A stretch of 56,865 nucleotides of DNA from Oscillospiraceae bacterium (lineage in GTDB: Bacteria; Bacillota; Clostridia; Oscillospirales; CAG-272), in contig SVUJ01000012.1 in assembly GCA_015063305.1 (NCBI GenBank), positions 5,391-62,255 on the forward strand. Direction: 5' to 3'. The position numbers were made by a program, and so were the translations under genes. Below the pieces are notes generated by a model that was not told the origin of the DNA, searched no databases, and worked only from the letters and a program-made list of their open reading frames with translations. Shown here in pieces: positions 2,845 through 31,835 of the stretch. Each line of letters begins with the position of its first letter. Position 1 is the first letter of the stretch.

Positions 2845-4281
2845 ATGGATACCGTATCAAGTTGGGATTTCACAATGGCAAATTATGATGCCGTTTGGGC
2901 ATTTTTAGTACAGCTCGGACTGTTATTGCTTTTCCTTATGTTAGGCAATATCCTTCGGCGCAAAATTCCGCTGTTCAGAAACTGTCTGATACCTTCCGCA
3001 CTCTTGGGCGGCGGCGTGTTGCTGGTAGTGGATATTATATGCAAGCAATTTGGAGTTATACTCGTTGACAATCGACTTATGCAGGTTATCACGTATCATT
3101 GTCTGGCGATCGGATTTGCCGCTATGTCGCTGAAAACAGAAAAAAGTGCGCATAAGACGAGCCGTGCGCAGGTCGTGGAATTCGGCGCTCTGCAGGGCGG
3201 CACCTATATGCTCCAAGCGTTCGTTGGACTTGGAATTACGTTGATACTCTTTCTTTTGACCCGACACGGCGAGGATATTATCTCTTATATCTGCGGCTTG
3301 ATCCTTCCTCTCGCTTACGGTCAAGGTCCGGGCAATGCTCTGAGCTGGGATATCAACTTCACAAACACGCCTGCCACACAGTTCGCGGGAAACGGCAGCT
3401 TTGGACTCTCTCTTGCCTCGATCGGCTTTGTAGTTGCTTCTGTTTTTGGTGTATTGTATATCAATATTCAAAAAAAGAGGGGAAATCTTTACGTTCGTAA
3501 GTCCGATCCGTCAAGCAAGACTGCAACCGACTCCAATTCGGGTGCCGAAGAGATCCCCGATAACGAGTCTGTGGATAAATTCACTATGCAGGTAGGCTTC
3601 GTTTCCATCGCCTACGCTATTTCCTTTGGATTTATGTTCCTTTTGGGAAAGCTCTCGGCATTCACAAACAGCATCGCGTGGGGCTTCAATTTCCTTTGGG
3701 CATCCTTAGCGGCTATGTTGATAAGACTTGTGGTAAAGCGCTTGCGCAAGCACAAGCTTATGAACCGTGAATACATAAACAATTATCAAATGGACCGAAT
3801 CTCAGGCTTCTCGTTTGACCTTATGATAGTTGCGGGAGTGGCAGCGATCCAGATCAACGATATCAAGAGATATCTGCTCCCCATTATTATTCTCAGCCTG
3901 GTTGGCACGGCAATTACCTACGTTTACATTCGCTTGGTTGCCAAGGAATGCTTCAAAGGCTTTGAGCACGAATTTTTCCTGATGAGCTTCGGCACTCTGA
4001 CAGGTACGGCTTCAAACGGTATGATCCTTACCAAAGAGATCGACCCCGATCTGAGAACGCCTACGTCCAGCCTTTACATTCTATCTAATTTCCCCGCTAT
4101 GGTAATGATAGCTCCGCTATTGGTTTTGTTGACCTTTGCGGGCGGATCGTTTACAAATGCGATTATCGCGTGCGCGATATTCTTCGTCCTCTGGAGCGTT
4201 TATACGGTATATCTGTTCCGCAGAAAAATTTTCAAAAAGCGGTACAAAAACAAGTCCGAAAACGTATGGAAGGATGAATGA
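2845..4281 (+). CDS. GltS-like sodium:glutamate symporter (ESS family)
   Basis: A 478-residue polytopic membrane protein with about 10-12 hydrophobic segments in two blocks, split by a charged cytoplasmic loop near residues 210-250. The motif LILPLAYGQGPGNAL (GQGPGNA at 159-165) matches the GQGPG region of GltS-type sodium/glutamate symporters, which import glutamate with Na+. I chose the ATG at 2845 because TAGGAGGT lies 7 nt upstream; an in-frame ATG at 2797 lacks a binding site and sits next to the promoter. It is monocistronic with its own promoter and terminator. Substrate identity is inferred from the family; some members are of uncertain specificity. Confidence 0.75.
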   Translation: MDTVSSWDFTMANYDAVWAFLVQLGLLLLFLMLGNILRRKIPLFRNCLIPSALLGGGVLLVVDIICKQFGVILVDNRLMQVITYHCLAIGFAAMSLKTEKSAHKTSRAQVVEFGALQGGTYMLQAFVGLGITLILFLLTRHGEDIISYICGLILPLAYGQGPGNALSWDINFTNTPATQFAGNGSFGLSLASIGFVVASVFGVLYINIQKKRGNLYVRKSDPSSKTATDSNSGAEEIPDNESVDKFTMQVGFVSIAYAISFGFMFLLGKLSAFTNSIAWGFNFLWASLAAMLIRLVVKRLRKHKLMNREYINNYQMDRISGFSFDLMIVAGVAAIQINDIKRYLLPIIILSLVGTAITYVYIRLVAKECFKGFEHEFFLMSFGTLTGTASNGMILTKEIDPDLRTPTSSLYILSNFPAMVMIAPLLVLLTFAGGSFTNAIIACAIFFVLWSVYTVYLFRRKIFKKRYKNKSENVWKDE

Positions 4282-4300
4282 TCATAAAAAAAGAACATAA

Positions 4301-4333
4301 GTCAAGACCACCGATATTATCGGTGGTCTTGAC
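4301..4333. terminator. Bidirectional terminator between convergent genes
   Basis: A 15-bp perfect stem (4301-4315 with 4319-4333) and a 3-nt loop. On minus it is followed by TTATGTTCTTTTTTT; on plus by a weaker T-rich tail. It serves the GltS-like gene and the recG-side operon. Confidence 0.75.
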
Positions 4334-4346
4334 TGTTATATAGACT

Positions 4347-4766
4347 TTATTTCTTGCTCTCTTTTTTCAGCCCGGACGATGCCGTTTGGGGAAGCAAAAG
4401 ACTTTGTGTAGAGAGATCCCAAAGCTGAGTGTCAGTATATCTCGGCGCGGCGTCCCTTGCGCTGTTGGACAAAAACACCTCGATGCGCACCTCAGCGGTC
4501 TTGTCCGAGTTATCCGTCACTTTTGCGCTCAACGAGTAGAGCATACGGCGCGGCAGGGCTCTCCCCTCCCCCCTCTCTCTTCTCAATATCTCACAAAGCT
4601 CGGGGAATTTCACCTCCTCGCACCACCTCTCACAAAGCGCGGAGAGCTCGGCGTAAAATCCGCTTATCTCTTCATATCCCTCAAATTTCGGCACAGACGA
4701 CGAAAATCTGAGCAGATCGTTCCCCTCAAAAACAAAACGGCGGCGCTTTACCGTATATTCCTGCAT
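4347..4766 (-). CDS. Hypothetical protein, 139 aa, downstream of recG
   Basis: Starts MQEYTVKRRRFVFEGND with AGGGAGG correctly spaced upstream, and is followed by a strong terminator, so it is very likely real. It begins 61 nt after recG on the same strand and is probably cotranscribed. No signal peptide or membrane segment. The pattern of aromatic and basic residues followed by a Cys-rich helix (ALCERWCEEVKF) recalls small DUF3298-like beta-rich domains, but I cannot assign a family. Function unknown. Confidence 0.6.
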   Translation of the reverse strand: MQEYTVKRRRFVFEGNDLLRFSSSVPKFEGYEEISGFYAELSALCERWCEEVKFPELCEILRRERGEGRALPRRMLYSLSAKVTDNSDKTAEVRIEVFLSNSARDAAPRYTDTQLWDLSTQSLLLPQTASSGLKKESKK

Positions 4767-25132: not shown

Positions 25133-25816
25133 ATGACCTACGTTGTGTCGGATATACACGGAAATTATGATAAATTCAAGCAGCTTCTCTCTGAGATAAG
25201 ATTTTCGGATAAAGACGTTATGTACGTCCTCGGAGATATCGTGGACTACGGAGAAGACCCCATCGGTCTTATCTGCGACATCAGTATGAGATATAACGTT
25301 CTGCCCATTCTCGGCAAGAGCGATTACGAGGCGCTCCCTATGCTCCGTGAGCTTGACCGCATACTCTCGGGAGATGCGCCCGACCCCGAAATGATGCCCC
25401 GTATGGCAGACTGGCTCTCAAACGGCGGAAAGACGACCATTGAGGGATTTAAGGCGCTTGATGCCGATATGAGAGAGGGCGTTATCGAGTATCTTGAGGA
25501 TATGGCGCTTTACGAGGAAGTAAAGGTTGGAGATAAAAAATACGTGCTCGTCCACGCGGGTATTGCCGAGTTTGACCCTATGGTATCACTTGACGAATAT
25601 ATGCCCGAGGATTTTATAAGCGAGCCGATAGACCCCGAAAAGGTATATTTTGAGAACGCCACGATAATCGCGGGAGCTGTACCCACGAGTGAGTACGGCG
25701 CAAAGGGCGCGATACTTCACGGCGTATCAAGCATAAACATAGATTGCGGCGCGGCTGACGGAGAGGCGCTTGGCTGCCTGCGCCTTGAGGACGGCAAGGA
25801 GTTCTATATCAGATGA
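25133..25816 (+). CDS. Calcineurin-like metallophosphoesterase
   Basis: 227 residues. Metal-binding motifs are SDIHGN (6-11), GDIVDYG near residue 34, GKSDYE in place of the usual GNHD/E, and VHAGI near residue 142. The family hydrolyses phosphoesters or dinucleotide polyphosphates (ApaH/PrpE relatives); the substrate is unknown. The altered GNHD motif is notable, since the Asn ligand is replaced by Lys-Ser. It lies 15 nt after nif3 and overlaps rlmD by 4 nt (ATGA). Confidence 0.82.
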   Translation: MTYVVSDIHGNYDKFKQLLSEIRFSDKDVMYVLGDIVDYGEDPIGLICDISMRYNVLPILGKSDYEALPMLRELDRILSGDAPDPEMMPRMADWLSNGGKTTIEGFKALDADMREGVIEYLEDMALYEEVKVGDKKYVLVHAGIAEFDPMVSLDEYMPEDFISEPIDPEKVYFENATIIAGAVPTSEYGAKGAILHGVSSINIDCGAADGEALGCLRLEDGKEFYIR

Positions 25817-27210
25817 GAAGCGCCGAAGCCCCAAAAAAGGGAGATAAGCTGACGCTTGAGGTCACAGACATAAACAATCTGGGCTGTGGCGTGGCGCACG
25901 CGCCCGACGGGCGCGTGGTATTTATCAAGGGCGCGGTGACGGGCGACCTCGTCAGCGCCGAGATAATAAAGGTAAACCGTAGCTTTCTCGTGGCAAGGCT
26001 GACAGAGGTGATGACCCCTTCTCTGCACCGCGCAGACAAGGAGTTCTGCCCCGCTCCTCTTGCCTGCGGCGGCTGTGTTTACAGACACATAAACTATTCG
26101 CACGAGCTCGAGCTGAAGCGTGATTACGTAAAGAACGCATTTAATAAGGCGGGACTGCCCGACGTGAAGGTCTTACCCGTTCTGTCTACAGGCAGAGCCG
26201 AGGGGTATCGCAACAAGGCGCAATACCCTGTTACTAAAACCAAAAATGGCACAAGGGCGGGATTTTTCGCCTCGAGGACGCATAACGTAATACCGATCGA
26301 TAACTGTATGCTGCAAAACGAGGCGTTCGCGCCTATCGTTAAATCGGTATGCGAGGCGGCTGACAGATACGGCTGGAGTGCTTACGACGAGGAATGCGGC
26401 AGCGGACTTTTGCGCCATATATATTTGAGAATAGGCGAGAGAACGGGAGAGATAATGCTCTGTCTTGTCATAAACGGAGATACCCTTCCCCACGCCGACG
26501 AATTTGTAAATGAGATAACGAGCGGTTTTCCGAACGTCGTCGGAATACTGCTGTCGATAAATAATAAGAACACCAACGTGATACTTGGGGACAGATACGT
26601 GACTCTGTACGGCAGAAGCTATATAGAGGACACGCTTTGTTCGTTGCGCTTTAAAATAAGCGCCGACTCCTTTTATCAGGTGAACCGCGACGGCGCAGAG
26701 CTGCTTTATTCGGTGGCGCGTGAGATGGCGAGCCTTGGTGGCGGTGAGGTATTGATGGACCTTTACTGCGGCACGGGAACTATCGGACTTTCGATGGCGA
26801 AGAATGTCAAAAAGCTGTGCGGAGTTGAGATAGTGTCGGCGGCGGTCGATTGCGCGAGGGAGAATGCCGAGAGAAACGGCATAGAGAACGCCGAGTTTTT
26901 CTGCGCCGATGCGGGAGATAAGGAAGTCATCTTGCGAGCGGCGGGCGGTGTACGCCCTGACGTTGTGGTGATAGACCCGCCGAGAAAGGGCAGCACGAAG
27001 GAGCTTGTGGAGTGTCTTGCGGGACTTGGAGTGCCGAAGGTGGTCTACGTTTCCTGCGACCCCGACACACTTGCGAGGGACGCGGCGTGGTTCAGCGAGG
27101 CGGGCTACGAGCTTGGTGAGGTGCAACCTGTTGATATGTTTCCAAGGACAGGACACGTTGAGTCCATCGTGTGTCTCACACGAGGACTCAACGTCGATAT
27201 GCGCCGCTGA
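25813..27210 (+). CDS. rlmD: 23S rRNA (uracil-C5)-methyltransferase, RlmD/RumA type
   Basis: 465 residues: a TRAM domain (about 8-65), Fe-S cysteines at 79, 85 and 88 with a further Cys near 166, SADSFYQVN, DLYCGTGTIGL (SAM motif), IDPPRKG and the catalytic Cys in VYVSCDPDTLARD. It methylates a uracil of 23S rRNA at C5. Coupled to the previous gene by ATGA. The end is odd: after the conserved HVESIVCLTR the frame continues GLNVDMRR into a hairpin array, and 27157-27193 is a near-perfect palindrome. The natural stop therefore appears to have been replaced by inserted sequence. Confidence 0.93.
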   Translation: MRSAEAPKKGDKLTLEVTDINNLGCGVAHAPDGRVVFIKGAVTGDLVSAEIIKVNRSFLVARLTEVMTPSLHRADKEFCPAPLACGGCVYRHINYSHELELKRDYVKNAFNKAGLPDVKVLPVLSTGRAEGYRNKAQYPVTKTKNGTRAGFFASRTHNVIPIDNCMLQNEAFAPIVKSVCEAADRYGWSAYDEECGSGLLRHIYLRIGERTGEIMLCLVINGDTLPHADEFVNEITSGFPNVVGILLSINNKNTNVILGDRYVTLYGRSYIEDTLCSLRFKISADSFYQVNRDGAELLYSVAREMASLGGGEVLMDLYCGTGTIGLSMAKNVKKLCGVEIVSAAVDCARENAERNGIENAEFFCADAGDKEVILRAAGGVRPDVVVIDPPRKGSTKELVECLAGLGVPKVVYVSCDPDTLARDAAWFSEAGYELGEVQPVDMFPRTGHVESIVCLTRGLNVDMRR

Positions 27211-27465
27211 CGCGTCGCTCGATATGCCGCCTGCGGCGGCTCGATATATCCCCTGCGGGGACTCGATATGTTTTGCCTTGCGGCAAAACGAGATTGGGGA
27301 AAAGCGCGTCAGCCGCATAGCGGCACTCGTTGCCGAAGGCAACATATCGATTGCTCGCAACGCGAGCAAATATCGAGTTTGAGTGAAGCGAAAACATATC
27401 GAGTTGCGAAGCAACATATCGACATACCGAAGGTATTGATATCGAGTTGCGAAGCAACATATCGA
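27193..27465. repeat. Hairpin array with CTCGATAT/ATATCGAG spacers
   Basis: Left-arm spacers CTCGATAT occur at 27218, 27240 and 27262; right-arm ATATCGA(G) at 27344, 27370, 27396, 27416, 27439 and 27459. Between them lie short unrelated hairpins (GCCGCC-TG-CGGCGGC, TTTTGCC-TTGC-GGCAAAA, TTGCTCGC-AAC-GCGAGCAA, GTTGC-GAA-GCAAC twice, ATACC-GAA-GGTAT), giving a 20-26 bp period. GCTGACGCG (27205) pairs with CGCGTCAGC (27305). Same architecture as 8028-8194 with a different spacer word. Confidence 0.75.
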
Positions 27466-27488
27466 CAAAAAGAAAGGACTTTTATCAA

Positions 27489-27839
27489 ATGACCGATAAT
27501 AAGAACCAACTACGAGAGGACGCTATAGAATTTGCAATCCAAATATCCGATTTGTGCGATGAAATCAAGGGTTGCTCTGTTTACATCAATCAAATAGTCC
27601 GTTCTTCATCATCGGTTGGAGCAAATATCCACGAAGCAAAATACGCACAGAGCAAAGCCGATTTTATAAATAAATTGGAAATCTCCTTAAAAGAGTGTTC
27701 GGAAACCGAATATTGGCTTGAACTGATTTTTAGAAAAGGTAAAATAACAGAAATAACCTACAAGGATTTACGCAACAAATGCGGTTCAATACGGCGCAGA
27801 CTCATCGCCTCAATCACCACGGCAAAGGAGAACAAGTGA
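27489..27839 (+). CDS. Four-helix-bundle protein (S23/Avd-like fold)
   Basis: 116 residues, all helical, with the family signature QIVRSSSSVGANIHEAKYAQSKADFINKLEISLKECSETEYWL, read here as four-helix-bundle (23S rRNA intervening-sequence protein) family. Relatives include Avd of diversity-generating retroelements, but no reverse transcriptase is near. The ATG at 27489 has AAAGGA upstream. First gene of the AT-rich island after rlmD; it overlaps the next gene by GTGA. Function unknown. Confidence 0.85.
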   Translation: MTDNKNQLREDAIEFAIQISDLCDEIKGCSVYINQIVRSSSSVGANIHEAKYAQSKADFINKLEISLKECSETEYWLELIFRKGKITEITYKDLRNKCGSIRRRLIASITTAKENK

Positions 27840-28081
27840 AAAAAAGCAAAAAGAATTTTACACACGCATTATTAGAGGGATTAGCCGAAATAGTATTGAC
27901 TTTGATCTTCTTTGGGATAGGTGCGTGTATTATCAGTTTGTTCGGAGTAAATTTGGACTCGCCAAACATAGACGGTGATTCAATTATATTGATCGGTATT
28001 GTTGTTCCGCTTGTAGTTTTTGCAACTGTCTGCGCTTTGGTACAGTGGTTTAAGAAAAAAATCAAAGGAAAACGCAGTTAA
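27836..28081 (+). CDS. Small two-helix membrane protein
   Basis: 81 residues starting GTG at 27836, coupled to the previous stop (GTGA), with AAAGGAG upstream. A lysine-rich N-terminus, two membrane helices (about 15-35 and 47-68) and a basic tail (FKKKIKGKRS). No family recognised. Two bases after its stop the first rlmD-tail copy begins. It may act with the four-helix-bundle protein. Confidence 0.7.
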   Translation: MKKSKKNFTHALLEGLAEIVLTLIFFGIGACIISLFGVNLDSPNIDGDSIILIGIVVPLVVFATVCALVQWFKKKIKGKRS

Positions 28082-28082
28082 A

Positions 28083-28142
28083 AGCATACCTTTTGTTCCC
28101 TCGCCTCACGTTGAGCGTGTCGTGTGTTTCACAAGGAGATAA
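28083..28142 (+). other. rlmD 3'-tail remnant, copy 1
   Basis: The open frame encodes IPFVPSPHVERVVCFTRR and a stop at 28140-28142, closely matching the rlmD C-terminus HVESIVCLTR. The core CACGTTGAG...TCGTGTGT is shared base for base (24 of 32 positions from 28107). Its AGG AGA codons also supply the Shine-Dalgarno of the next gene. Confidence 0.7.
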
Positions 28143-28144
28143 TT

Positions 28145-28444
28145 ATGTTTGTAAAAACAGTTTATTTAGGTTGTTATCCTCTTGGAGGAGATTTAAAAAT
28201 CAATGGCATCAAGATTATGCAAAGCGAATGGAAAAAGATACGCAAACCTATTGTTTTCCCTTTTGGAAAGAGGTGCGAAAAAGTAATCCCCTTTTTCTGC
28301 GAGACCTTTGTTGTTATGGCAGATGGCAAACGAGCTTTCTTTTTAGCCTGTGAGTCCGGCATTGGGAAATATCACATATTTGGATTATCCGAAAAGGCTA
28401 ATCAAAAACTGTGTGATTATAAAAGACTGAAAACTCAAAAATGA
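28145..28444 (+). CDS. Hypothetical protein, 99 aa
   Basis: Starts MFVKTVYLGCYPLGGDL at 28145, right after AAGGAG lying in the rlmD-tail remnant. Soluble, basic, with an aromatic-rich centre (PFFCETFVVMADGKRAFF). No family recognised. AT-rich relative to flanking core genes. Followed by rlmD-tail copy 2. Confidence 0.6.
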   Translation: MFVKTVYLGCYPLGGDLKINGIKIMQSEWKKIRKPIVFPFGKRCEKVIPFFCETFVVMADGKRAFFLACESGIGKYHIFGLSEKANQKLCDYKRLKTQK

Positions 28445-28463
28445 GACTTTAACTATTACCCCG

Positions 28464-28511
28464 TTTTGCACACCTTTTGTCATCTTGACCCACGGCGAAA
28501 GTACAATTTAA
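28464..28511 (+). other. rlmD 3'-tail remnant, copy 2 (degenerate)
   Basis: Contains ACACCTTTTGT (28470-28480) and CACGGCGAAAGT (28491-28502); read in the tail frame it gives PFVILTHGESTI and a stop. It shares the first word with copies 1 and 3 and the second with copy 4. Confidence 0.5.
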
Positions 28512-28557
28512 AACAAGCTATACCGCAGTTAGGAGTAACATATTGAAAGGAGCATGT

Positions 28558-28953
28558 ATGGGTTACCAACTTCATGATAGTCAAATAAACCAAATCGGAC
28601 TTAGCAAAAATACAATCGTTCTCAATTTTTCAGAGGGCTTTTGGGCAACCAATGAACAAGGTAAAATGACTGAACAGTTAAAAAACTGTGAAATCGTGTT
28701 TGAAATAGACAGGAATGGCTTCCCCATTGAAGATTTTATTTCTGTTCGTATTTCGAAAAAGAGCGGATTCTATAAAACTGTATCATTATCAAAGTTCCTT
28801 GATTTGCTTAAGAAATCTCCGTTTGATGTTTATATGGAATATGATTGCAGTTTTGCAAATCGTAAAATGTTGCAGGTACATTCAAACCGTTTGCTTATCC
28901 GTGCAGAAATTTTTATTGACGACATCAAGAACGTAGAGTATATATACGATTGA
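28558..28953 (+). CDS. Hypothetical protein, 131 aa
   Basis: The ATG at 28558 is preceded by AAAGGAG at 7 nt. Soluble, predicted mixed alpha/beta (MGYQLHDSQINQIGLSKNTI, then LNFSEGFW). The opening HDSQINQI and the following beta pattern recall small immunity-type or DUF proteins, but I cannot name a family. Third slot of the island; AT-rich; followed directly by rlmD-tail copy 3. Confidence 0.6.
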   Translation: MGYQLHDSQINQIGLSKNTIVLNFSEGFWATNEQGKMTEQLKNCEIVFEIDRNGFPIEDFISVRISKKSGFYKTVSLSKFLDLLKKSPFDVYMEYDCSFANRKMLQVHSNRLLIRAEIFIDDIKNVEYIYD

Positions 28954-28955
28954 AA

Positions 28956-28985
28956 ATATACCTTTTGTCGTTACACAGACCAAGA
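28956..28985 (+). other. rlmD 3'-tail remnant, copy 3 (partial)
   Basis: ATACCTTTTGT at 28958-28968 is identical to the word at 28086-28096 in copy 1 and again begins within a few bases of a stop codon. The HVES part is not recognisable. Confidence 0.4.
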
Positions 28986-29032
28986 AGCGCCAAGCGAAGC
29001 GAGGGCTGGATCTCTGGTGAAAAGGAGAAATA

Positions 29033-29329
29033 ATGTATTACGTTTACATACTCACAAACAAGACCAACGCGGTAATGTATATCGGTATGACAAATGACTT
29101 GCAACGACGTTTGTACGAACATAAAAACGAGCTTATTGATGGCTTTACAAAAAAGTACCATGTTCACAAATTAGTATATTACGAAAGCTATAAAAATGTA
29201 AAAGATGCGATCTTGAGAGAGAAAAATCTCAAAGACCTCTTGCGGATTCGCAAAAACGAATTGGTGGAAACGATCAACCCCGATTGGATAGATTTGTCGG
29301 ATGAATTATTTCGGAATGTGTTTGCTTAA
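29033..29329 (+). CDS. GIY-YIG domain endonuclease-like protein
   Basis: 98 residues with YYVYILTN and YIGMTNDLQRRLYEHK, the GIY-YIG core, and LREKNLKDLLRIRKNELV downstream. Stand-alone YhbQ-type members are putative single-strand nicking or repair nucleases; mobile introns use the same fold. AAAGGAG precedes the ATG. It lies in the rlmD-downstream island among orphan genes. Confidence 0.9.
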   Translation: MYYVYILTNKTNAVMYIGMTNDLQRRLYEHKNELIDGFTKKYHVHKLVYYESYKNVKDAILREKNLKDLLRIRKNELVETINPDWIDLSDELFRNVFA

Positions 29330-29334
29330 TAATT

Positions 29335-29427
29335 CGCCCGAGATCCTTCGCTACATCCCCCCGCGCTGTCATTCTTGAGCGCAGCGAAGAATCTCGCGGG
29401 GGACTTCGCTCGAGGATGACACGGGCG
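29335..29427. repeat. Foldback intergenic repeat (TGTCATTCTTGAGCGCAGCG type)
   Basis: CGCCCG (29335) and CGGGCG (29422) bound a foldback with AGATCCTTCGCT facing AGCGAAGAATCT, CCCCCCGCG facing CGCGGGGG, and TGTCATTC facing GATGACA. This word family is widespread in bacterial genomes. Confidence 0.65.
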
Positions 29428-29518
29428 AGGGGAATGCGCAGAAACAAAAACGATTTAAGCGATACTCAAAAGTTCATGTTACAGCAGTCGGGATTAATAC
29501 CATTAAAAGGAGAGAACA

Positions 29519-29707
29519 GTGAAATCTTTACGTATTATACAGACTATAGGATATTTTGCCTTGTTTTTGGCATCAATCTTCAATTTTGTAAATCAAATCA
29601 CAGAGAAAAACGTTTTCAGTCCTGCTGTTACAATACCGCTGTTTGTTATTGCGATCGTCGGCATCACCTGTGGTATTATACTTTTGGTAAAAAACAAGCG
29701 CAAGTGA
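29519..29707 (+). CDS. Small two-helix membrane protein, 62 aa
   Basis: GTG start at 29519 with AAAAGGAG upstream. Two membrane helices (about 7-24 and 36-57) and a basic end (KNKRK). No family recognised. Last gene of the island; the stop is followed within a few bases by rlmD-tail copy 4. Confidence 0.6.
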   Translation: MKSLRIIQTIGYFALFLASIFNFVNQITEKNVFSPAVTIPLFVIAIVGITCGIILLVKNKRK

Positions 29708-29708
29708 T

Positions 29709-29756
29709 ACTTTTTGCACCCACGCCGAAAGTGTCGTGTGTCTGACGAGAAAATAA
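29709..29756 (+). other. rlmD 3'-tail remnant, copy 4
   Basis: The open frame encodes HAESVVCLTRK and a stop at 29754-29756 (rlmD: HVESIVCLTR). TCGTGTGTCT is identical to rlmD, and GTGTCGTGTGT is identical to copy 1. It closes the AT-rich island. Confidence 0.65.
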
Positions 29757-29850
29757 CAGAAAAACTCGTAGGGTTAATTCACGAATCACCTAAAAATCAT
29801 TGATACTACTCATATTAAGCACAAAGTAATCTTCTACCGTCATATCATTG

Positions 29851-29879
29851 TTGACTTTTGTTTCAATTTGTGCTATCAT
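29851..29879 (+). promoter_or_regulatory. Promoter of the membrane protein at 29915
   Basis: TTGACT (29851-29856), 17 bp, TATCAT (29874-29879). Confidence 0.6.
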
Positions 29880-29914
29880 TTTACTGCAACTTTAGAAACA
29901 AGAGGAGAAAAAAT

Positions 29915-30481
29915 ATGGGCAAAACAAAGAAAAGCGGACCCGCTATATTTATGTACTGCGTTATAGCCCTCACCTTGCTTGTGGCGCTCATATCCTTCAT
30001 TATATATTACTGCAATATTTTAAGGTCGGGGATTATTCTCTGGACGGGAGTTACCGCCTTCACTATAATGTATCACCTGTGGCTGCGGATAATTATGGGG
30101 AATGTGACCAAGCTCTTCAGAATAAACTATTCGCAACGGTGGTTCAGGGAAAGACGATTTGAACGTCGGCTGTATAAACTTCTGAGAGTGAGAAAGTGGA
30201 AGGAAAAGGTGCTGACCTATGACCCCGACTCCTTCTCGCAGGAGAAGCATACGCTTGACGAGATAGCGAATACTATGTGCAAGGCGGAAACAGACCACTG
30301 GATAAACGAGCTTATATCCCTCTCTACCCTGCTCTTCGCCCTTCTTTGGGGAGAGCTTTGGATATTCCTCATAACCGCTGTGGCGGCGATGATATTCGAC
30401 GCTCAGTTTATAGTGGTGCAGAGATTCAACCGCCCCATAGTTCTAAGAGTATTAAACAGAAAAAAGAGCCGTAAGGCTTGA
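29915..30481 (+). CDS. Integral membrane protein, possibly CrtO-like acyltransferase family
   Basis: 188 residues with about four membrane helices and a conserved-looking cytoplasmic segment (FERRLYKLLRVRKWKEKVL then YDPDSFS and TMCKAETDHWINELIS). This order resembles glycosyl-4,4'-diaponeurosporenoate acyltransferase (CrtO) family membrane proteins, which are common in Clostridia without carotenoid genes. The ATG at 29915 has AGAGGAG upstream. It precedes the M20 amidohydrolase by 19 nt and is probably cotranscribed. The substrate is unknown. Confidence 0.6.
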   Translation: MGKTKKSGPAIFMYCVIALTLLVALISFIIYYCNILRSGIILWTGVTAFTIMYHLWLRIIMGNVTKLFRINYSQRWFRERRFERRLYKLLRVRKWKEKVLTYDPDSFSQEKHTLDEIANTMCKAETDHWINELISLSTLLFALLWGELWIFLITAVAAMIFDAQFIVVQRFNRPIVLRVLNRKKSRKA

Positions 30482-30500
30482 GTATAAGAGGAAAAATATT

Positions 30501-31835
30501 ATGAATACTATTTCAAACGCAGTAGAAAAATACAGACAGCTCATACTTGACGCCGAGCGTTATATCTGGGCAAACCCCGAAACGGGATACAGAGAGGTAA
30601 AGACCACCAAGTATCTCGCCGACAGATTTACCGAGCTTGGATACGAGCTTACAATGGCAGAGGGTATAACGGGATTTTACACAGTTATAGACACGGGCAG
30701 AGAGGGTCCTGAGGTGCTTATACTCGGCGAGCTTGACTCGGTCATCTGCGCCGAGCATAAGGACGCCGACCCCGAAACCGGCGCGGTACACTCCTGCGGA
30801 CACAACGCGCAGTGCGCGGCTCTTCTCGGAATCGCCGCGGCACTCACCGACAAGGACGTGCTCGACGGACTTTGCGGAAGGATAAGACTTTGCGCCGTTC
30901 CCGCAGAGGAGCTGCTTGAGATCGAATTCAGAAGTGAGCTTAAAAAGCAGGGAAAGATAAAATATTACGGCGGAAAGAGCGAGTTCCTCTCGCGCGGATA
31001 TTTTGACGGAGTTGACCTCGCGTTTATGGTACACACAGGCCCTCAGTATTTCGTAAGAGCGGGCTATGTAGGCTGTCTTGCCAAGAATATCACATATAAG
31101 GGCGTGGCGGCGCACGCGGGAGGTACTCCCTGGCTCGGCCGCAACGCGCTCTATGCCGCGACTTGCGGACTGAACGCGGTAAACGCTATCAGAGAAACTT
31201 TTAAGGATTCCGAGCTTGTAAGAGTACACCCGATAATAACCACGGGTGGAAGTATGGTAAACGCTATACCCGACAAGGTCGTTCTCGAGTCCTACGTTCG
31301 CGGCGCTACATTTGACGCTATAGCCGAAACCAACGCCAAGGTAAACCGCGCGCTCTGCGGCGCGGCGCTCTCGCTGGGAACGAACGTTGATATAGAGGAT
31401 ATCCCCGGATACGCTCCGCTTATAAACAACAAGGATATGGTGCAGGTAGCCGTGGAGGCAGCCGAGATAGCTGTCCCCGAAGAAAAGTTCTGGGTAGACC
31501 CGACTATGAGCACGGGTAGCACGGATATGGGCGATCTCTCCTGTATAATGCCTGTCGTTCAGCCCTATGCAAGGGGACGACGCGGAACGGCGCACGGCGC
31601 GGATTACGAGATATACGATCCCGAATCGGCATGTGTCAAGAACGCAAAATGGCAGCTCACTATGCTCCAGATATTGCTGGGCAACGGAGGAGCGCGTGCA
31701 AAGGAAATAATCAAGAATTTCAAACCGCTCTTCGCCTCTAAGGAAGAATTCCTTGCTTATCAGGACAGCCTTTTCTCTTCGGGCGACAGAATAACCTATC
31801 GCGATAATAATACTGCCGAAATCGACACACACTAA
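30501..31835 (+). CDS. M20-family amidohydrolase
   Basis: 444 residues. Metal-binding and catalytic motifs of M20D peptidase/amidohydrolases are seen: LGELDSVIC, HSCGHNAQCAALLG, VPAEE, MVHTGPQ, and a dimerisation insert beginning YKGVAAHAGGTPWLGRNAL. Such enzymes cleave N-acyl or aminobenzoyl-glutamate-type amide bonds in the cytosol; the substrate is not evident. It sits 30 nt before a ROK glucokinase, so sugar-conjugate turnover is conceivable. Confidence 0.85.
   Translation: MNTISNAVEKYRQLILDAERYIWANPETGYREVKTTKYLADRFTELGYELTMAEGITGFYTVIDTGREGPEVLILGELDSVICAEHKDADPETGAVHSCGHNAQCAALLGIAAALTDKDVLDGLCGRIRLCAVPAEELLEIEFRSELKKQGKIKYYGGKSEFLSRGYFDGVDLAFMVHTGPQYFVRAGYVGCLAKNITYKGVAAHAGGTPWLGRNALYAATCGLNAVNAIRETFKDSELVRVHPIITTGGSMVNAIPDKVVLESYVRGATFDAIAETNAKVNRALCGAALSLGTNVDIEDIPGYAPLINNKDMVQVAVEAAEIAVPEEKFWVDPTMSTGSTDMGDLSCIMPVVQPYARGRRGTAHGADYEIYDPESACVKNAKWQLTMLQILLGNGGARAKEIIKNFKPLFASKEEFLAYQDSLFSSGDRITYRDNNTAEIDTH

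Follow-up and report, generated by a model that had tools for sequence, protein, structure and literature searches.

In integrons, serial, co-oriented and mostly single small genes of unknown function are each followed by a repeated site, the attC boxes of which read RYYYAAC and GTTRRRY; the arrays differ between genomes and can be without an integrase, as in clusters of attC sites lacking integron-integrases (CALINs), which do not require IntI. Integrons are reported to occur only very occasionally in Firmicutes (PMC9024848). Two other described systems are located at the 3' end of a gene. As described in PMC4701971, integrative and conjugative elements (ICEs) of Streptococcus with a serine integrase target the 3' end of rumA/rlmD, swap the 3' ends of rumA and the integrase gene, leave a copy of the tail at their far side, and have attR inside the integrase gene. 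Cis-mobilizable elements (CIMEs) are described (PMC7563491) as non-autonomous, helper-dependent elements flanked by attachment (att) sites; they lie in series at the 3' end of a gene, either two or three in tandem with sizes of 1.2 to 13 kb or as gene-less microCIMEs. Here, we analyzed the region behind rlmD in a 56,865-nucleotide stretch of DNA from an Oscillospiraceae bacterium (assembly GCA_015063305.1, contig SVUJ01000012.1, positions 5,391 to 62,255), referred to below as the window. The original prediction for this region was a cassette-like array of small genes, each capped by a copy of the rlmD 3' tail; it also named the rumA/rlmD 3' end as an ICE target, in agreement with the Streptococcus elements. 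The region is almost certainly a mobile gene-cassette array: discrete units bounded by joints lie in one orientation at one locus, and near-identical whole units occur in different genera.

The joint, which separates one slot from the next, is about 96 bp long in relatives of the same genus and is much better kept there than in the window. It consists of an arm of two similar units of about 40 nt, each with ACCTTTTG, and a core equal to the rlmD 3' tail CACGTCGAGAGTGTCGTTTGTCTGAC. When the window was scored with a profile of 12 joints taken only from other genomes, joint copies 1, 4 and 2 reached 39.1, 37.6 and 21.9 bits, respectively, compared to a best score of 6.0 bits for 300 dinucleotide shuffles of the region 27211-29900; nothing matched on the opposite strand of the real region. 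Copy 3 retains 23 nt (AAAATATACCTTTTGTCGTTACA) that are identical to arm sequence of an intact G103 joint and has lost the rlmD part; its score was just 5.2 bits, a value that 1 of the 300 shuffles reached. Plain alignment with the rlmD tail was convincing for copies 1 and 4 only. Four tail copies had been predicted, of which 1 and 4 were confirmed, each with additional sequence on the upstream side; copy 2 is shortened and keeps part of the tail, and copy 3 is arm only. The word AYACCTTTTGT, predicted to be shared by copies 1 to 3, does occur there, but as part of the cassette arm and not of rlmD. The window array is a decayed example, since copies 1, 2 and 4 are shortened and copy 3 lacks the rlmD part.

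All comparisons were made with assembled genomes, one per species, many of which are metagenome-assembled genomes (MAGs). A sequence-only joint model (13 sequences, 109 positions, E threshold of 0.001) matched 22 of 30 genomes of the same genus, covering more than the rlmD tail in 17; 46 of 196 genomes of the family, distributed over 25 of 71 genera, with more than the tail covered in 41; and 15 of 295 genomes of the order, a set that draws again on the family genomes, with more than the tail covered in 12, including seven genomes of other families. In G354 and G058, which belong to other families, a joint lies shortly downstream of an rlmD homologue. The tail similarity, a fall of which to chance level would have spoken against the prediction, exceeds the 300 shuffles, and intact joints occur across genus, family and order. 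Among 80 Firmicutes rlmD loci, a second tail was detected downstream in only two (L151 and L164); the tail patterns were strict (one found 28 tails in the 80 loci, and the other missed the known copies of locus L044), so that this count leaves room for arrays at these loci. A phage or plasmid carrier was considered and rejected: two exact joint patterns had no match in viral contigs, a 163-aa cassette protein and the GIY-YIG protein had no relative there, and one joint compared with plasmids and phages gave no match at an E value of 0.01. In G068 and G476, joints were also observed behind an rlmD paralogue (L255, 6249-7940; L330, 3392-5475).

The architecture of the arrays was scanned on 77 contigs from 67 genomes, most of which had been picked for carrying a joint or rlmD. 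The scan returned 83 arm-bearing profile matches, three of which were the rlmD tails themselves. Of the remaining 80 joints, 26 were on contigs without rlmD and 54 were on contigs with it; all 54 lay downstream of rlmD on the same strand. An upstream open reading frame (ORF) was in reach of 50 of the 53 full joints, and 40 of these 50 joints started within 15 nt of its stop codon, compared to 4.4% for 1060 random positions. Between consecutive profile matches there were 66 intervals, two of them very long, which held 20,015 aa of picked ORFs on the strand of rlmD and 1,347 aa on the opposite strand. Their content is mostly one or two AT-rich genes oriented as rlmD, with a median GC content of 37% for 100 cassette ORFs versus 53% for 52 rlmD genes. 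Among 25 near-full-length rlmD matches of the same genus, the contig ended less than 1.5 kb downstream in 12 cases and less than 1.5 kb upstream in one, as expected if the repeat breaks short-read assembly. Some cassettes have leaders of about 190 nt. The proposal that the tail supplies the Shine-Dalgarno sequence of the next gene is readable at copy 1; it fits only slots with short leaders and not those with the long ones. The leaders of about 190 bp are common to unrelated cassette genes (cassette starts in L226, L233, L112 and L037), and some begin with GTAGGGGCGA and have inverted-repeat ends like those of miniature inverted-repeat transposable elements.

Thirteen cassette pairs, selected from a blastn list for high identity, were compared between genomes. 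Nine cross-genus pairs were 93.6 to 97.5% identical, while their rlmD genes were only 57.8 to 63.9% identical. A 203-bp unit with a 62-aa gene was 96.6 to 97.5% identical among G031, G253 and G235 (rlmD, 59 to 62%), where it occupies different slots, and the match spans the entire interval from joint to joint. A unit with the 163-aa gene was 94.8 to 97.0% identical in four pairs (rlmD, 58 to 62%). Further pairs were a 391-bp unit of G014 and G182 (93.6%; rlmD, 61%), a 288-bp unit of G169 and G180 (96.9%; rlmD, 64%), and a 1.1-kb unit of G022 and G240 (94.2%; rlmD, 58%). A tenth cross-genus pair, G161 and G102, was weaker (84.5%; rlmD, 57%). The cassettes of G015 and G246 were 96.6% identical, with no rlmD on the contigs covered, and those of the within-genus pair G001 and G024 were 99.5% identical (rlmD, 92.9%). 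Cross-contamination of MAGs was considered as a source of the shared cassettes and is unlikely, because each cassette of the nine pairs shares its contig with a diverged rlmD of its own and has different neighbours.

Slot gene order is not fixed among relatives, so that neither of the two outcomes named beforehand as refuting the prediction was obtained. The predicted serial accretion of single-gene slots is supported. A relative of the 62-aa gene of the window occupies slot 1 in G235 and slot 3 in G031, and the relative of the 131-aa gene in G006 is alone in slot 1, between rlmD and a joint. The GIY-YIG gene has relatives in 11 other genomes, five of which have a joint within 23 nt to the right; the contigs of the other six lack a joint on that side. 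A relative of the 99-aa gene of slot 2 (45%) is flanked by two joints in G405, which belongs to another family. Relatives of the slot 1 four-helix bundle gene occur in 18 further genomes of the set, with 18 of 19 matches on the strand of rlmD. Since relatives of the 62-aa, 131-aa and GIY-YIG genes adjoin joints elsewhere, the two-gene slots of the window may be single cassettes that lost their joint.

The small ORFs behind rlmD in the window are AT-rich, and the slot contents as read from the ORF list and Pfam are a four-helix bundle protein (PF05635) plus a small ORF, a 99-aa gene, a 131-aa gene, and a GIY-YIG gene plus the 62-aa ORF. No window slot protein other than the PF05635 and GIY-YIG proteins matched a Pfam family above the cut-off. 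For a wider view, 85 slot proteins were scanned (ORFs of at least 60 aa on the strand of rlmD from the 66 intervals minus G001 and the two very long ones, with one window ORF swapped for the 62-aa ORF). PF05635 was matched 13 times and GIY-YIG 3 times; single matches included glycerate kinase, HNH, DUF559 and helicase families. The 28 Pfam families cover at most 44 of the proteins, leaving at least 41 of 85 without a family at an E value of 0.001. No integrase, relaxase or transfer family was among the 25 of the 28 Pfam families that were listed. PADLOC matches comprised ten families, none with more than two members, NCBIfam gave 24 families, and PHROGs gave 58, among which HNH or homing endonucleases are numerous. 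A few slot proteins had nuclease or restriction-like matches.

The core was readable in 59 joints, and for 36 of them, from 23 genomes, the rlmD tail of the same genome was available. Core positions 5-22 matched the genome's own rlmD with a fraction of 0.824, compared to 0.758 for permuted genomes (0 of 2000 permutations); block 8-14 gave 12 of 2000 and block 30-40 gave 1314 of 2000. Among the 50 full joints, core identity was 0.844 within and 0.767 between genomes (2 of 2000), identity after the core was 0.468 versus 0.392 (15 of 2000), and arm identity was 0.763 versus 0.733 (165 of 2000). As judged from these statistics, the joint core resembles the host's own rlmD, which would fit host sequence entering from about GTCGA rightward.

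A candidate recombinase was found in G001, where a gene for a 590-aa serine recombinase lies directly left of the array and closes with codons that imitate the rlmD tail (QVESLVCLTRK). In G078, a partial relative has the ending QVESVICLTW..., and a relative in G093 ends in QVETIVLLSKKD...; the DNA of G001 and G078 is alike up to about GTCGA and then diverges. Large serine recombinase genes with such tail-mimicking 3' ends are present in L332 (contig C21 of G001), L196 and L197, and cassettes directly follow in G001 and G078. The similarity of the stretch before the recombinase core to cassette arms was reached by 10 and 16 of 500 shuffles for two near-identical genes, and this likeness is suggestive only. 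The form of the G001 enzyme, together with the 3'-end exchange of the Streptococcus rumA ICEs, points to a serine integrase of the rumA type as the most likely trans-acting helper. A dedicated common tyrosine integrase was not apparent: G169 has one PF00589 match, which is apparently Xer-like, and only an apparently Xer-like recombinase looks common, as judged by E values and lengths.

In the explanation that we favor, the mobile unit would usually consist of one or two genes followed by an arm of about 60 nt. Units would insert in one orientation at the rlmD 3' end and would be joined by copies of the rlmD tail serving as the recombination core. Each insertion would rewrite the final codons of rlmD, or those of the joint before it, and leave a new core copy, so that cassettes would accrete in series. 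The crossover would lie near the left edge of the tail, at about GTCGA. A site-specific recombinase would act in trans; the most likely candidate is a serine integrase like those of the rumA ICEs, with a gene that ends in the att core. We consider it probable that a trans-acting site-specific recombinase moves the cassettes; assigning this role to a rumA-type serine integrase is a tentative step. The whole explanation, comprising an array at the rlmD 3' end, the tail as recombination core, and a recombinase in trans, is in our judgment the probable one.

Several observations weigh against it. Of 98 genomes, just 3 carry a relative of the G001 serine recombinase, and PF00239 was unmatched in the window's own genome and in 4 of 12 array genomes, including G103 with its seven joints; a helper recombinase that comes and goes would fit this patchy occurrence. 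Neither excision nor a circle was seen in the assembled genomes. The match of the core to the genome's own rlmD is weak in blocks 0-8 (80 of 2000) and 14-22 (195 of 2000) and yet reaches block 22-30 (34 of 2000), so that it does not pin the crossover base. The arms would be expected to travel with the upstream gene, yet they are more variable than that gene: they were just 64 to 81% alike in 11 of the 13 pairs and 92 to 95% alike in two, and G001 and G024 have a joint and the downstream gene in common while their upstream genes differ. A single site-specific reaction is insufficient for this arm variation, which needs repeated exchange or conversion within the joint or fast change of the arm.

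In a different scenario, there is no dedicated recombinase; DNA from related cells would be taken up, and general or single-strand-annealing recombination between the joints of about 96 bp would swap genes, with the rlmD tail as one homologous stretch. The joints are mosaic: linkage between variable columns drops from a mean r2 of 0.28 below 8 nt to 0.02 to 0.08 beyond (50 joints), most column pairs are four-gamete incompatible, and breakpoints seem to fall at several points. That only an apparently Xer-like recombinase looks common also agrees with such exchange. However, the joints are just about 75% alike with short exact runs, and arm identity within a genome barely exceeds that between genomes. 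This scenario also accounts less readily for the strictly uniform orientation and for cassettes entering diverged rlmD genes; we regard homologous exchange as a doubtful explanation. It is less probable still that the slots represent what decay has left of ICEs or integrative and mobilizable elements accreted at rumA as CIMEs, each cut down to one gene between att sites. PMC4701971 and PMC7563491 provide precedents, namely rumA as a target of serine-integrase ICEs and tandem CIMEs and microCIMEs. Against this origin, the families listed for the slot proteins lack integrase, relaxase and transfer functions, and the same compact unit with the same ends occurs in different genera, which argues that the cassette moves as such.

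Free-standing homing nucleases of the GIY-YIG or HNH type could cut cassette-free sites and drive spread by repair, and GIY-YIG relatives in 11 other genomes as well as GIY-YIG, HNH and homing-endonuclease matches among the slot proteins point in this direction. Many of the best-shared units have no known nuclease, though, and the arrays of G103, G031 and G169 have no GIY-YIG relative; this mechanism is very improbable. A true integron array without its integrase (a CALIN) would have the same layout of co-oriented genes, each followed by a repeat. IntI (TIGR02249) scored above the cut-off in none of the 196 family genomes (194 had sub-threshold matches, as did all 14 controls), and an attC box pair was present in none of the 50 full joints (shuffled mean, 0.17). 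RNAalifold gave -2.7 kcal/mol for 13 joints, with 10 pairs, 2 of them with double changes, so that a common hairpin is unsupported; the top covariation among joints was not pair-like, and single joints folded variably (z, -2.8 to +0.6). A known RNA family was also rejected, as Rfam at gathering thresholds detected only two tRNAs in three array loci. The failed attC box test refutes a CALIN unless the boxes are altered beyond recognition, and we give this interpretation almost no credence. The same applies to chance similarity or an ordinary fixed operon, even though window copies 2 and 3 are poor. Chance was rejected because the shuffles reach at most 6.0 bits and copies 1, 2 and 4 score above this value; a fixed operon was rejected because relatives of the cassette genes occupy other slots elsewhere.

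How does the rlmD cassette array compare with the known systems? The likening of the locus to an integron stands as an analogy of layout, serial co-oriented genes each with a site being found in the 66 intervals on 77 contigs, and falls as a claim of membership: unlike an integron or CALIN, the rlmD arrays have no IntI above the cut-off, no attC boxes and no supported common fold, and they have the 3' end of a housekeeping gene as their core. The rlmD array functions in the manner of an integron array without belonging to the integrons. With the rumA ICEs it shares the target, and the G001 recombinase has the form left by their 3'-end exchange; a serine integrase gene ending in the att core is present in G001, with a partial copy in G078, whereas the families listed for the 85 slot proteins include no recombinase. 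In contrast to these ICEs, the cassettes are 0.2 to 3 kb in size, comprise one or few genes, stand many in series, and carry no integrase or transfer genes in the scanned set. As in CIMEs, the slots are flanked by joints and the families listed for them include none for recombination or transfer. Unlike CIMEs, the rlmD arrays have up to about seven joints, gene-sized units common to several genera, and a conserved two-unit arm; the array may represent a helper-dependent element in compact, widely shared form. It could possibly represent a separate class of gene capture in Clostridia, characterized by a two-unit joint, a core derived from the host's rlmD, order-wide arrays, a trans-acting recombinase, and arms re-assorted word by word, although we suggest this with reserve. 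We found no account of such an array in the literature searched, which left most subscription papers and preprints outside its reach. An order of gut Clostridia has a cassette platform analogous to the integron, of different make, with a conserved chromosomal address and mostly unknown AT-rich genes. The 3' end of a housekeeping gene can turn into a serial capture site, and the joint model offers a handle for collecting cassette genes.

Features of the rlmD locus in the window (positions of the window)
Feature	Position	Strand	Evidence and remarks
rlmD, anchor gene	25813..27210	+	ORF list; full-length relatives within genus
rlmD tail = joint core, anchor copy	27154..27188	+	Profile positions 61-95, 17.1 bits
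Slot 1 gene, four-helix bundle protein PF05635/TIGR02436	27492..27839	+	Pfam E 1.7e-22
Slot 1 second gene, small membrane-like ORF	27836..28081	+	GTG start assumed; ORF listed from 27779; relatives in G016, G008, G029
Joint copy 1, one arm unit + core	28080..28142	+	39.1 bits; 0/300 shuffles >6.0
Slot 2 gene, 99 aa, no family	28145..28444	+	Relatives in G027 and G405
Joint copy 2, shortened	28440..28502	+	Profile match 28460-28502, 21.9 bits; left part by eye
Slot 3 gene, 131 aa, no family	28558..28953	+	G006 relative, 71% aa
Joint copy 3, remnant of first arm unit without rlmD tail	28951..28973	+	23-nt exact match to G103 joint; 5.2 bits
GIY-YIG gene	29033..29329	+	PF01541 E 6.1e-16; relatives in 11 other genomes
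62-aa ORF	29519..29707	+	Relatives alone between joints in G031, G253, G235 (three other genera)
Joint copy 4, shortened	29699..29757	+	37.6 bits
Right flank, not cassettes: membrane-like gene 29914-30481, M20-like gene 30501-31835	29914..31835	+	Relatives right of arrays, several genomes

Further features were observed in the joints and at the end of rlmD. In full joints, arm words such as GGAGTCTTGACC and GGTCTTATGACC alternate via compensating indels that keep the length, and three-base variants recur, the same ones in both arm units. Three joints of a different arm class are located behind rlmD of G033, which belongs to another genus (L044, about 2430-2570, 3300-3435 and 4290-4430); they still end in the rlmD-tail core. 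The 3' end of rlmD itself is a near-perfect palindrome, with window positions 27140-27205 folding at -19.5 kcal/mol, a value that none of 200 shuffles reached. In this stretch (window 27155-27475; also L010, L033 and L043), the right arm of the palindrome inverts the coding left arm of the same genome, and small hairpins with constant linkers, e.g., CGATATG, ATGAATTG or GTGAAGTT, follow on its 3' side.

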